Positions 10,118-27,706 of a stretch of DNA of 35,861 nucleotides are shown piece by piece. The notes beneath the pieces were generated by a model. That model ran no database searches and had not been told where the DNA came from. It saw only the letters and a list, made by a program, of their open reading frames with translations. The stretch covers positions 1-35,861 of the forward strand of contig JANXTL010000204.1 in assembly GCA_025352375.1 (NCBI GenBank). The letters are read 5' to 3'. Made by a program: the position numbers and the translations under genes. Position 1 is the stretch's first letter; the number at the start of each line of letters is the position of its first letter. Source of the DNA: Acetobacteraceae bacterium. Lineage in GTDB: Bacteria; Pseudomonadota; Alphaproteobacteria; Acetobacterales; Acetobacteraceae.

Positions 10118-10375
10118 CGCTTGCGATGTGCCGGACCCGGTCAGCGTGACGGAAAACGCGGCATTGGCGGGACCGGTGGATGTTCCGGTGAACAACGCCG
10201 GTTTGCCGAAGCCGAAGCCGGGGCCGGTCGCAGCGCTGCCGTTGGCGGAGTGGAATTATTTGCTCGCGGTCAACCTAACCGGGTATTTCCTGTGCGCGCA
10301 GGCGTTCGGGGTGGCGATGCCGGAGCGTCGCAGCGGCGCCTATCGCGTCAGCAAGGCGGGGATCGCGATGCTGTC
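10110..10375 (+). pseudogene. Decayed N-terminal part of an SDR oxidoreductase
   Basis: The plus-strand frame reads ATIACDVPDPVSVTE, then PVDVPVNNAG, WNYLLAVNLTGYFLCAQAFG and finally SGAYRVSKAGIAML. These are the cofactor-binding and YxxxK segments of a short-chain dehydrogenase. The Rossmann start and the stretch between the NNAG region and the catalytic tyrosine (where GG.IVN.SS belongs) are missing, so it is a deleted remnant. SDR-like C-terminal sequence reappears at 13047-13163, beyond the KaiC-CheB operon, and could be the other end of the same gene. Confidence 0.65.
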
Positions 10376-10439
10376 CCCGCACGCCCATGAGCGAGGTGTT
10401 CTATCAGGTGTTAGATCGTCCGATTGCTGACACCGTGCC

Positions 10440-10511
10440 GGTTCAACCCGCCGGCACCGGGTCCTTGCCTGCCTCGCGTACGATCCTGAACATCTGTTCG
10501 TTCGTAAGTCT
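10440..10511 (-). pseudogene. Possible remnant of an IS3-family OrfA N-terminus
   Basis: On the minus strand one frame reads RLTNEQMFRIVREA. This resembles the RFTxEQIxxILREAE start of IS3-type transposase OrfA helix-turn-helix proteins. The match is short, begins after a stop codon and is not followed by recognisable transposase, so it is only a hint of an old insertion element beside the KaiC operon. Confidence 0.25.
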
Positions 10512-10820: not shown

Positions 10821-12326
10821 ATGATTGGTATGCCCAGAACTTCTAAAAAGAAAAAGCCAGCTGCTCACAACCCATTGGAAAAATGCGCGACTGGCATAAA
10901 GGGATTCGACCAAATTACCGAAGGCGGACTTCCGAAAAACAGGATCACGCTGGTTTGTGGGAGTGCGGGTTCGGGCAAGACTCTTTTGGGGATCGATTTT
11001 ATGATCAATGGTGCTATTAAGTATGACGAACCGGGCGTCTTCATGTCCTTCGAAGAGACGGAAGAGGAACTTTACCGAGACGTTGCATCTCTCAACCTGA
11101 ATTTAAAACAGCTTGTTTTAGAGAAGAAGATACTGCTCGAACATGTTCTTTTGGAACGCAGAGATATTCAGGAGATCGACTTCAATCTTGAAGGATTACT
11201 CATCCGTTTGGAACATGCCGTTGATTCCATTGGCGCCAAGCGCGTCGTTTTAGATTCTATTGAATCACTATTCGCAGGTCTGACGGATCCTGGCGTTCTT
11301 CGCTTAGAGGTAAAGCGACTCTTCCGTTGGCTTAAGGAGAAAAAAGTTACGACGTTCATTACGGGCGAACCCGGTCAAGGCGGATCCTATACGCGCCACG
11401 GCCTGGAGGAGTACATTTCAGATTGCATCATTTTCCTGGATAACCGAGTCCGTGAACAAATTTCCATCCGCAGAATTCGCATAATTAAATATCGAGGTTC
11501 TAACCATGGAACCAACGAATATCCATTTGTAATAGATAGCGATGGACTATCCGTCATTCCGATTACCTCTGCTGGACTCGATCAACCCGGAACAGCCAAA
11601 AGAGTTTCGACGGGCATTCCATCTTTGGACGAAATGTTCAAGGGCGGAGGATATACCAGAGGCAGTACGATACTTGTCTCGGGTACCGCCGGCACTGGAA
11701 AAACAAGCCTCGCCGCTGCATTCGCGACAGAAAGGTGTAGGCAGGGAGAACGGTGTCTCTTCTTGTCGTACGAGGAATCATCGGGTCAGCTTGCACAAAA
11801 TATGAGCTCTATCGGTTTTCATTTTGAACCATACATAAAAAAAGGGCTTTTAAAGATCGCCTCCACCAGACCCTCATTTTTTGGATTGGAGATGCATTTG
11901 CTCGACTTATATAAGATTATTGCAGATTTTAAACCGCAGGCTGTGGTTATTGATCCCTTGACAAGTCTTATTGGCGAGGGAAGCGAACGTGAGATTAAAT
12001 CCATGGTCACTCGGATGATCGACCTTCTGAAGTCCGAGGGTATAACCGGATTTTTTACCAGCCTGGTTTCCTCGACAGCGCAGAATTTCACTAGCGGCGA
12101 AGTCGGCGTCTCATCCTTAATCGACACGTGGATCGTTGTTAGAGAATTAGAAGAAAATGCGGGATCGAGACGGATTCGTGGGCTTTACATTGTTAAATCT
12201 CGTGGCACGAACCACTCCAGCGATATCCATAAATTAATCCTGAGCGATGACGGAATTACTTTAGTGCCGGTGGATACTGTCGGGAGAGTCGATCAGGGAG
12301 ATACGGTGGATAGAAGCCATCTCTGA
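10821..12326 (+). CDS. KaiC-like tandem RecA-domain ATPase
   Basis: This 501-residue protein has two KaiC/RecA ATPase domains. Domain 1 has Walker A GSAGSGKT (47-54) and the catalytic Glu pair in SFEET (78-79). Domain 2 has GTAGTGKT (288-295) and YEES with Glu318-Glu319. The region matching the clock phosphosites reads VSSLIDT, putting Ser431-Ser432 where cyanobacterial KaiC has Ser-Thr. The C-terminus ends soon after domain 2, so the KaiA-binding tail looks absent, and no kaiA or kaiB is nearby. An ATG at 10830 is an alternative start; neither has a strong ribosome-binding site. GC content is far below that of the neighbours, and CheB follows after 34 bp. ATP-driven autophosphorylation is likely; a clock role is not shown. 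Confidence 0.92.
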   Translation: MIGMPRTSKKKKPAAHNPLEKCATGIKGFDQITEGGLPKNRITLVCGSAGSGKTLLGIDFMINGAIKYDEPGVFMSFEETEEELYRDVASLNLNLKQLVLEKKILLEHVLLERRDIQEIDFNLEGLLIRLEHAVDSIGAKRVVLDSIESLFAGLTDPGVLRLEVKRLFRWLKEKKVTTFITGEPGQGGSYTRHGLEEYISDCIIFLDNRVREQISIRRIRIIKYRGSNHGTNEYPFVIDSDGLSVIPITSAGLDQPGTAKRVSTGIPSLDEMFKGGGYTRGSTILVSGTAGTGKTSLAAAFATERCRQGERCLFLSYEESSGQLAQNMSSIGFHFEPYIKKGLLKIASTRPSFFGLEMHLLDLYKIIADFKPQAVVIDPLTSLIGEGSEREIKSMVTRMIDLLKSEGITGFFTSLVSSTAQNFTSGEVGVSSLIDTWIVVRELEENAGSRRIRGLYIVKSRGTNHSSDIHKLILSDDGITLVPVDTVGRVDQGDTVDRSHL

Positions 12327-12360
12327 AAAACACAACATAGCTCGAAGGGAGACATACCAA

Positions 12361-12927
12361 ATGGGACCAGCGAAATTCATTGTCGGCATTGGCGGCTCAG
12401 CTGGGGGGCTGGCGGCATATGCGGCTCTCTTGGACGCACTGCCGCCTCATACAGGTATGGCTTTCGTTATTGTTGCCCATCTTATGCCATCGGCCAATAG
12501 TCAATTGGTGCAAATATTGTCGCGTCATACAAAAATGAAAGTAATGTTGGCTGCCTCGGACTTGACCATCCGAGAAAATCACGTCTATGTGATTCCGCCG
12601 GATGCCGATCTTCGAATGGAGAGAAATGTTTTCAAAGTCGTCTCACCGCGCACTGGGCGTAACAAGCAGATAGATTTGTTTTTGACTTCTTTGGCAGAGG
12701 CCATGGGGGCGGACGCGATAGGCATTATCCTTTCGGGGTACGATGGAGACGGTACCGAAGGATGCAGGCAAATCAAGGCAAAGGGAGGAACAACCTTTGC
12801 TCAGGACATGTCCGCGGACGTAGAACAAATGCCTCGCAGTGCTCAAGCATCGGGCAGCATCGATTTCGTGCTCTCACCCAAAGATATTGCGGATGAATTA
12901 CAAAGACTGGCAACATGCCGATCCTGA
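12361..12927 (+). CDS. Stand-alone CheB-type methylesterase domain protein
   Basis: This 188-residue protein corresponds to the CheB catalytic domain alone. The triad is visible: Ser13 in IGGSAGG, His40 in VAHLMP and Asp130 in LSGYDGDGTEG. The receiver domain of classical CheB is missing, so phosphorylation control must be absent or supplied by a partner. CheB removes methyl groups from receptor glutamates; this one resembles the domain found in CheB-CheR fusion sensors. A GAAGGGAG site precedes the ATG. It lies 34 bp after the KaiC-like gene, shares its low GC content, and is almost certainly in the same operon. No CheR, CheA or receptor is adjacent. Its substrate may not be a chemoreceptor. 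Confidence 0.88.
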   Translation: MGPAKFIVGIGGSAGGLAAYAALLDALPPHTGMAFVIVAHLMPSANSQLVQILSRHTKMKVMLAASDLTIRENHVYVIPPDADLRMERNVFKVVSPRTGRNKQIDLFLTSLAEAMGADAIGIILSGYDGDGTEGCRQIKAKGGTTFAQDMSADVEQMPRSAQASGSIDFVLSPKDIADELQRLATCRS

Positions 12928-12957
12928 GGAAGCCCAACCGGCTGGCCCATGCGCAGC

Positions 12958-13040
12958 CGCCGATCGACCAGCGTAAGACCACGGCCGACGCCGCCCGGAT
13001 CATGGGCATAGGTCGCACGACCCTCAACCACGCCTACCAG
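12958..13040 (+). pseudogene. Remnant of a resolvase-type C-terminal helix-turn-helix
   Basis: Right after the CheB gene one frame reads PIDQRKTTADAARIMGIGRT followed by TLNHAYQ. This resembles the DNA-binding helix-turn-helix at the end of serine recombinases (resolvases), where ALGIGRxTLYxxL is typical. No catalytic domain precedes it. It may be a scar of the event that brought in or rearranged the KaiC-CheB operon. Confidence 0.45.
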
Positions 13041-13046
13041 GCGCCG

Positions 13047-13163
13047 GACGTGGCCGACAAATGCGCCAGAATCGTGCCGCTGGGCCGCGTCGCCCTGCCG
13101 GAGGACATCGCCGACGTCATCGTGTACCTGGCCAGCGTTCGGGCAGCTTCGGGCGGGTGCTGA
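13047..13163 (+). pseudogene. Decayed C-terminal part of an SDR oxidoreductase
   Basis: The frame reads DVADKCARIVPLGRVALPED then IADVIVYLAS. This is the standard C-terminal segment of short-chain dehydrogenases (PLGR...PEDIA..V.FLAS). The final Gly-rich VxGG strand is lost to a frame change. It is fused in frame with the resolvase-like remnant. Together with the N-terminal SDR piece at 10110-10375 it brackets the KaiC-CheB operon. Confidence 0.6.
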
Positions 13164-13245
13164 TGAGTCTGGTGCCTCGGTTCTAGGGGGCGGGCGCGTC
13201 TGTTCACTTTTTATTCTTTTCTGGTCGTTTGCCCCTTGCTCAGCC

Positions 13246-13305
13246 CCGATCTATGCGTTCCCGATCTACGCGTTCCCGATCTACGCGTTCCCGATCTACG
13301 CGCTA
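13246..13305 (+). repeat. Four tandem copies of a 15-bp repeat
   Basis: CCGATCTACGCGTTC occurs four times head to tail: 13246-13260 (one mismatch), 13261-13275, 13276-13290 and 13291-13305 (last three bases differ). The array lies about 40 bp upstream of a small gene at 13346. It could be a regulatory iteron-like array or simple slippage expansion. Confidence 0.9.
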
Positions 13306-25822: not shown

Positions 25823-27706
25823 TCACGCCGCTCGAGCGACGATGGAGTCGACCAACGCCCGCAACTTCGGCCGCTGGTCGTCGGTCGGCAGTATCTCCAA
25901 GCCCCACCCGTCTGGATCGTTCCGCCTCACGACGAACGACAGCGGTTCGGCGATTGTCGCCAATTGCATCGTGCCCACGGTACCGACAGCGAATTTCGAG
26001 TCGGTTAGGATCCGAGCGCCTCCGGTGGACAGATCGGCTGTCCTGGCTTCGATAGGCGCTATGCCGGCGAACGACACCCGACACGCAAAGTCGGTTGGGT
26101 AACGCTCCGCACCCCGCCGATTCACCTGAGGGGTAGCGTTTCGTATCACCGATACGACTGTCCGTTTCAGATCGGACATGGATGCGGACAGTCCGGCGGC
26201 AGTTCCCCTCACCTCGGTGGCCGAGCGGCCGGTGCGCTCGGCTTCGTGCGTGACTTCGCCGAGGCGCACGGTCACTTCGTTCACCGCGATCACGGTTTCT
26301 GTGACATTGCGGGCGATTTCCCCGGTCGCTGCCGCCTGCTGCTCCACCGCCGCGGCGATCGATCCGGCAATGGCGTTTACCTCCTCCACCGTGCCGATAA
26401 TGGCGCCGACCGCCTGGATGGAAAGGTCTGTCGCGGTCCGTACCTCGCCGATGTGGCGGGCAATCTCATCGGTGGACCGCGCGGTCTGCACAGCGAGCTG
26501 TTTGACCTCGGATGCCACCACGGCAAACCCCTTGCCGGCCGCGCCCGCCCGTGCGGCTTCGATCGTGGCGTTGAGCGCGAGCAGATTGGTCTGTCTGGCG
26601 ATGCCGGCGATGATGTCGGCGACGGCGCCGATCAGGTTCACTTTTTCACTCAACGACTGGATGGCTGCACGGGTGGCGCTGCCACCCGCGACCGCCTGGC
26701 CCACGACCGTGGCGGATTGATTGACCTGAGACGATATCTCCCGGATCGACGCCGTCAGTTGTTCGGCCGCGCTTGCGACCGTTTGGGTTGTGCCAAGCGC
26801 TTGCTCCGCGGCCAGCATCGCCGCCTGGGTCGATGTCTCGGTGCTGGTCGCGGACAGTTCCATCGCGCAAGCGCTATCCGCCATGGTCTGGACGTGCTGC
26901 CCGACGATGTCCATCGACGCGGTTGTTTCGTTCTCCACCCTGTCCGCCATCCCGCGCAGGGTCGTGGTCAGTGTGGCTGTGAACTGAGTCTGTTGTTCCC
27001 GATCGGCGATCCTTTGGGCCTCGATCCGTGCGAGATTATCGGCGATGGAGCGCTGCATGATGGCGAGCGCACCTAGCAGTCGGGCCGTTTCGCTGCGTCC
27101 CCTGATGTCGATCGCGTTGTCCAGTTTTCCGCCAGCGATCGCGGTCGCGACCGCGACGCCCCGGCGAACGGGGCGCACGATCGCGGCACCGAGCAGGAAG
27201 GTAATGATCGCCGCGCCGACCACCGATAATCCCAGCGCGTAGCGGATCGAGTTTTCGCTTGCCGCGATCAGCTTGTCGACGTTGCCGCGCAGGGCGAACC
27301 CGTCGGCCGTGACAAGTTCCACCAGGTTGTCGAAGTCGGTTTCGATCGCACCGATCGCCCCGGATTGCTCGCCGGCGGCTTTTTTCACCGCGGCCTGCAA
27401 CGCCACCACCTTCACGCGCAAATCCCGGGTGGCAGCGAGTGTGGCCGGGGAGGACGCCCGTTCGATCGCAACGTCGAGGTCGCTGAGTACATCGTCCAGT
27501 CCTTTAGTGTCCCGCGGTTTTGTCGTGAACCGCATGAATCCCAGGTTGGCGCTGCGCACGTAACTGATACTCATAAGCGATTGATCGTAGACCTGGATGG
27601 CGACAGCGCCGAGTGTCCGCACCTGCGTCCGCTCGTAGAGTCCCAGACAAATCGTGACCAGGAGCATGGTCAGACAGCCGGACATAATTTTCAGTCGGAT
27701 CGACAT
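25823..27706 (-). CDS. Methyl-accepting chemotaxis protein with C-terminal PilZ domain
   Basis: In this 627-residue receptor TM1 is about residues 7-23. A helical periplasmic domain of about 130 residues (four-helix-bundle type) follows, then TM2 at 156-176, HAMP at 177-230, a long signalling coiled coil with the conserved tip around 367-402 ([20 protein letters not shown], then [13 protein letters not shown]), and a PilZ domain at about 530-610. PilZ has the c-di-GMP motifs RRGAER (530-535) and DLSTGG (558-563). It should signal to CheA/CheW and respond to c-di-GMP. It lies 21 bp downstream of the cupredoxin gene, and AGGGA precedes its ATG. No che genes are adjacent. The ligand is unknown. 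Confidence 0.92.

Follow-up and report, generated by a model that had tools for sequence, protein, structure and literature searches.

The KaiBC hourglass of Rhodobacter (Cereibacter) sphaeroides (PDB 8DB3/8DBA/8FWI) contains the closest solved relatives of the KaiC described here (508 bits). The R. sphaeroides KaiC has 568 residues, carries a C-terminal coiled-coil extension, works with KaiB and is phosphorylated at S413-S414 (PMC10076222). A KaiC without KaiB has been reported from Ramlibacter tataouinensis, in which Rta_04330/04340 combine KaiC one-to-one with a downstream histidine kinase; the KaiC contexts given in that paper are KaiB, histidine kinase and receiver/GGDEF, and CheB is not among them (PMC3164672). 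An archaeal survey describes KaiC-receiver links and no KaiC-CheB pairs. In open-access full text, we found no description of a KaiC paired with a CheB, a methylesterase or a CheR.

We analyzed a stretch of 35,861 nucleotides from an Acetobacteraceae bacterium (the window), in which a kaiC gene is followed by a cheB gene; this pair and its relatives are referred to below as the module. The module KaiC resembles the R. sphaeroides protein in its double-domain organization (about 50% identity), its Ser-Ser phosphosites and both catalytic Glu pairs. However, it has no coiled-coil extension, most of its hosts have no KaiB, and its partner gene is cheB. Like the Ramlibacter pair, the module consists of a KaiB-less KaiC with one downstream signalling gene, but in Ramlibacter that gene codes for a histidine kinase. 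The module CheB shares the catalytic fold and the Ser-His-Asp triad with the chemotaxis enzymes (PDB 3sft, 1chd, 1a2o, 6ymz), whereas it lacks the receiver domain and the cheA/cheR/receptor operon, no chemoreceptor is encoded in half of the host genomes, and most of its Crp-fused relatives are without catalytic residues. Receiver-less CheB domains also occur in CheB-CheR-PAS-(histidine kinase-receiver) hybrids, which are sometimes encoded near the module, and in other stand-alone CheBs (about 40-50% identity), but these fall outside the module CheB clade and were not seen adjoining a module-clade KaiC. The evidence suggests a clock-protein signalling pair that has not been described before and works without the usual KaiB, in which KaiC signalling is the known part and the conserved CheB output partner is the new one.

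KaiC and CheB of the module

The pair in the window has the following arrangement.

10821-12326, + strand: kaiC of the CheB-linked clade, double-domain ATPase/kinase, 501 aa
12327-12360, + strand: intergenic gap of 34 bp, with a Shine-Dalgarno-like AAGGGAG ahead of the cheB start
12361-12927, + strand: cheB, stand-alone CheB catalytic domain without receiver, 188 aa

The original prediction described a double-domain KaiC with both Walker A motifs, both Glu pairs and Ser431-Ser432, followed after 34 bp by a receiver-less CheB with its triad, and the open reading frames, profile searches and alignments bear this out. The KaiC contains two Pfam KaiC domains (369 bits) and scores 625 bits with the NCBIfam model PRK09302 (cut-off 408). 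With the cyanobacterial clock model TIGR02655 it scores only 326.4 bits against a cut-off of 546.25 and thus does not reach the equivalog threshold. Residues 47-54 and 288-295 form its Walker A motifs, residues 78-79 and 318-319 are its Glu pairs, and Ser431-Ser432 align with S413-S414 of R. sphaeroides KaiC. It therefore has the double-domain structure, ATPase motifs and adjacent phosphosites of the KaiC of KaiABC and KaiBC systems. The Walker A lysines, the Glu pairs and S431/S432/D435 are kept in all intact module KaiCs; the reading frame of one, at locus L072, is broken in the assembly. All module KaiCs have Gly at the position aligned to cyanobacterial T426, a module-specific change. Where the tail was read, it stops about 20-30 aa past the CII core, which leaves no room for a long coiled coil.

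Residues 8-180 of the CheB match PF01339 over its whole length (166.9 bits); no other domain was found, and the profile search of the 188-aa protein gave no N-terminal receiver. Alignment to solved CheBs places the triad at S13/H40/D130. The NCBIfam CheB models give 94-111 bits, with cut-offs of 293-342. The Ser-His-Asp residues are retained by all 27 unfused module CheBs that were read. An acidobacterial module KaiC is 83% identical to that of the window, and the module CheB of locus L039 is 77% identical. In most module loci, the gap between kaiC and cheB ranges from −8 to about 70 bp.

Conservation and distribution of the pair

Scanning 84,980 species genomes yielded 51 KaiC loci. Wherever the KaiC had at least 70% identity and enough contig followed, a CheB came next on the same strand (27/27 loci, 57-76% identity); this count takes in L044, where the contig ends inside CheB, and 12 more loci at or above 70% end too early. 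Among the KaiCs at 49-55% identity, 11 loci with at least 700 bp downstream had no CheB within 1 kb, and five further KaiCs of this set had no CheB downstream either. To the 27 scan loci we added the window, a locus in genome G358 that was found by two separate searches (KaiC 76%, CheB 66%) and three second copies, L095, L097 and L099, which entered through their CheB and not their KaiC. In each of these 32 pairs the KaiC is followed by a same-strand CheB of the module clade. A CheB partner thus accompanies 32/32 KaiCs at or above 70% identity and 0/16 at 49-55% (Fisher p = 4e-13). These counts rule out a chance juxtaposition in a single genome, and the pairing also exists beyond the window genome.

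By record name, the hosts belong to nine phyla: Acidobacteriota, Nitrospirota, Chloroflexota, Bacteroidota, Bdellovibrionota, Pseudomonadota, Planctomycetota, Elusimicrobiota and Melainabacteria, although many loci are metagenome-assembled and some of these host names may result from wrong binning. Carriers with long contigs or in culture include Aequorivita lipolytica, Gillisia hiemivivida, Polaromonas eurypsychrophila and Mucilaginibacter flavidus. The module is scarce, being found in 2/385 genomes of the class. Phylum samples of Acidobacteriota and Bacteroidota (327 and 326 genomes) returned the starting genome only, which again argues that it is rare. No third conserved gene was found, since no other gene family occurs in more than two loci. 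We also considered phage or plasmid cargo and rejected it: no relatives of the module were found in viral contigs, and the best plasmid matches (54% for KaiC, 45% for CheB) lie outside the clades.

The record titles of many carriers name palsa, fen, bog and Chersky/Siberian samples. Other carriers are glacier or polar isolates, and an association of the module with cold habitats is possible.

Module-type CheBs also occur without KaiC. Mucilaginibacter flavidus, which has two KaiC-linked copies, carries a third module-type CheB (L093:2980-3690) with no KaiC found within 3 kb. In Candidatus Obscuribacter (L096:2855-4249), a module-type CheB without KaiC is interrupted by an internal TGA and runs on, in the same frame, into a receiver-like region, with universal-stress-type proteins on its flanks; on this weak evidence, the arrangement is a possible third fusion or pseudogene. 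These two loci indicate that CheB can act or decay alone.

Co-inheritance and horizontal transfer

The module KaiCs form one clade with a long stem (support 100/100), and so do the module CheBs (99/90). Pairwise KaiC and CheB distances are correlated (Mantel r = 0.675), with none of 9999 permutations giving as high a value. The dN/dS ratios are 0.05-0.30 for unfused pairs and 0.05-0.47 overall. The adjacency in nine phyla, the matched trees and the purifying selection strongly support both the expected joint travel of the two genes and the view that their pairing is functional. The trees of the module proteins mix phyla and the GC content of the module differs from that of its flanks in many hosts, which argues for frequent transfer. 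Judged by its sequences, kaiC-cheB is a horizontally transferred two-gene module.

CheB-Crp fusions

Five module CheBs are fused to a Crp-type regulator.

L037, 9577-10791: CheB-Crp fusion, Acidobacteria; His to Gln, Asp to Glu
L038, 2703-3929: CheB-Crp fusion, Acidobacteria; catalytic residues kept
L041, 9565-10791: CheB-Crp fusion, Acidobacteria; His to Arg
L064, 8615-9499: CheB-Crp fusion, Acidobacteria; His to Gln; contig end leaves only the Crp start
L072, 9493-10803: CheB-Crp fusion, gammaproteobacterial bin; His to Gln; clearly different Crp

Catalytic residues are lost in 4/5 fused and 0/27 unfused CheBs (p = 1e-4, kinship ignored), and on the tree these losses amount to about three separate events. 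The fused acidobacterial Crp part has a cNMP-binding fold and HTH_Crp_2. Over its full length it belongs to a resident paralog family, homologs of which occur in 46/89 Acidobacteriaceae genomes, only two of them carrying the fusion form; the closest stand-alone copy has 72% identity. An incoming CheB was therefore joined to a local transcription factor. In an AlphaFold model of the L038 protein, the CheB fold was recovered (3sft, 1chd), and the Crp half was of low confidence yet matched Crp structures. Stand-alone Crp-type regulators resembling the fused ones lie near the modules at L072:165-854, L078:2719-3129, L055:7740-7997 and L086:5748-6323.

A natural fusion of KaiC to CheB was not found among the module loci. 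At about a dozen loci both genes are in one frame, with one or two stop codons between them. Conserved read-through is unlikely, since the intervening stops are of all three kinds. We modelled KaiC-CheB from such same-frame loci as one linked AlphaFold chain in which the stop codon was read as glycine. All domains were folded (mean pLDDT 81.6, pTM 0.57) and the linker was unstructured; a confident KaiC-CheB interface was not seen in this single-chain model, which contains no KaiC hexamer and thus speaks neither for nor against binding.

Possible function of the pair

Twelve module genomes were searched for the usual partners of KaiC and CheB. KaiB is present in 4/12 and absent from 8/12, and kaiB was not found at the module loci. 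Chemoreceptor signalling domains occur in 6/12 and are absent from 6/12. Neither KaiB nor chemoreceptors are therefore generally required for module function. CheR is present in 12/12, with one to five per genome. Extra CheB/CheR genes lie within 7 kb in 9/43 module loci, six of which have CheR; over the flanks of about 340 kb, a fraction of one CheR locus would be expected from the genome counts. Most of these extra genes are CheB-CheR-PAS-kinase hybrids, which may provide the methylation arm of the pathway.

We consider it reasonably probable that the pair is a KaiB-free, transferred module in which KaiC is a switch and the adjacent CheB is its dedicated output partner, either as a free enzyme or as a fused adaptor. 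A KaiC hexamer, without KaiA or KaiB, would serve as a switch of ATP or phosphorylation state. In the common form, to which the pair of the window belongs, the free CheB probably has catalytic activity; KaiC would bind it when in a particular nucleotide or phosphorylation state and release or activate its methylesterase/glutaminase activity. KaiC would thus replace the missing receiver domain in the control of CheB; since a free CheB has no receiver to control it, the neighboring KaiC would be its natural regulator. CheB would act on a protein that CheR modifies; instead of a chemoreceptor, this target may be a CheB-CheR-PAS-histidine kinase hybrid. The Crp-fused CheB of the derived form may be a KaiC-reading adaptor that connects the KaiC state to DNA, and catalysis would be dispensable because CheB would there be an adaptor. 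CheB is thus probably an enzyme when free and a transcription adaptor when fused, and the decay of its catalysis once a DNA-binding domain is attached suggests that binding, and not only catalysis, matters in the pair. We infer from these patterns the physical binding of KaiC and CheB, the activity of KaiC, the activity and substrate of CheB, the direction of control and any role in timing. Tentatively, the module may represent a class of KaiB-free KaiCs in which KaiC, not a receiver, controls a free CheB and in which CheB elsewhere is a non-catalytic reader wired to Crp.

It had been suggested that the pair acts through protein demethylation or deamidation. This route suits the stand-alone CheBs with their intact triads, but it cannot be the whole story, because catalytic residues are gone from most of the Crp-fused CheBs and chemoreceptors are missing from half of the module genomes. 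A related proposal is that CheB demethylates or deamidates KaiC itself, after modification by CheR, and sets its state, so that CheB would be the input or reset arm. The strict one-to-one pairing, together with CheR in all the searched genomes and chemoreceptors in only half of them, fits a substrate inside the module, and the free CheBs keep the triad. However, a Crp fusion with catalytic loss is easier to explain if CheB is downstream of KaiC, and the module-specific KaiC residues include no clade-wide new Glu/Gln pair of the methylation type; we regard action of CheB on KaiC as improbable.

The two products might also never touch, CheB acting on CheB-CheR-PAS kinases and the adjacency resulting only from joint transfer as a co-mobile stress cassette. 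We think this unlikely, because no third gene ever moves with the pair and because the complete linkage, the correlated divergence and the single origin of the pair are tighter than expected for unrelated cargo, although the cross-phylum transfer with GC mismatch, the extra CheB/CheR/kinase genes nearby, the CheBs without KaiC at L093 and L096 and the lack of a predicted interface in the linked chain would agree with it. A KaiB-dependent hourglass or clock as in R. sphaeroides, with CheB as an extra output and KaiB supplied from other host loci, would be in line with the kinship to that KaiC, the Ser-Ser phosphosites and the two KaiBs encoded elsewhere in the window genome. Against this stand the many module genomes without KaiB, the KaiC tails, which are far shorter than in the R. 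sphaeroides protein, and the Gly at the T426 position, which make such a system very doubtful.

The pair makes the question of what bacterial KaiCs do outside cyanobacteria, above all without KaiB, testable with two purified proteins. The pair is compact, spans nine phyla and is available in cultured strains, and its natural fusions name transcription as the output. If the model is true, a CheB can be controlled by a partner other than a receiver and converted into an adaptor.

Probable insertion of the module in the window genome

The third-position GC content (GC3) is 0.48 for kaiC and 0.51 for cheB and 0.80-0.84 for the neighbors; a low GC content of both genes had been noted originally. 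The codon usage of the pair correlates with that of neighboring genes at 0.24 and 0.42, compared with 0.85-0.91 among host genes. The closest CheB in other members of the same genus has only 46% identity, so the module was probably gained by transfer. It interrupts a decayed short-chain dehydrogenase gene, of which one piece remains on each side.

10128-10427, + strand: left remnant, decayed short-chain dehydrogenase, adh_short profile positions 73-129, E 5.5e-10
12930-13163, + strand: right remnant, short-chain dehydrogenase, adh_short_C2 positions 177-221, E 2.8e-4

The match of the right remnant, which begins directly after the cheB stop, is weak and below the curated cut-off. In the translation, its first part resembles a recombinase-type helix-turn-helix. 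The neighbors are unrelated metabolic genes for a luciferase-like monooxygenase, a dehydrogenase, a methyltransferase, a fatty acid hydroxylase, an amidohydrolase, a TauD dioxygenase and a CoA transferase. The statement that no receptor lies nearby holds within 10 kb but not for the whole window, which contains a methyl-accepting chemotaxis-type signalling domain at 26234-26737 (− strand), about 13 kb from the pair.

The window genome encodes two CheRs, two KaiBs and six receptor domains. Both KaiBs adjoin another KaiC, on contig C95 only (genome G000; L001:4340-15000), which also encodes a PAS-kinase-receiver hybrid and, in an open frame of 1438 codons, a CheB-CheR fusion; another stand-alone CheB is on contig C219. 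In the trees, the C95 KaiC and the C219 CheB fall outside the module clades. Contig C95 appears as an independent KaiC/CheB-CheR neighborhood.

A 9-bp direct repeat, CGATCCTGA, is present at 10481 and 12919, on the GC borders. We do not claim it as a target-site duplication, since chance alone would give about 0.7 repeats of this kind. Downstream of the module, inspection by eye showed a 15-bp unit (GATCTACGCGTTCCC-like) repeated head-to-tail several times in the intergenic region at 13242-13305.
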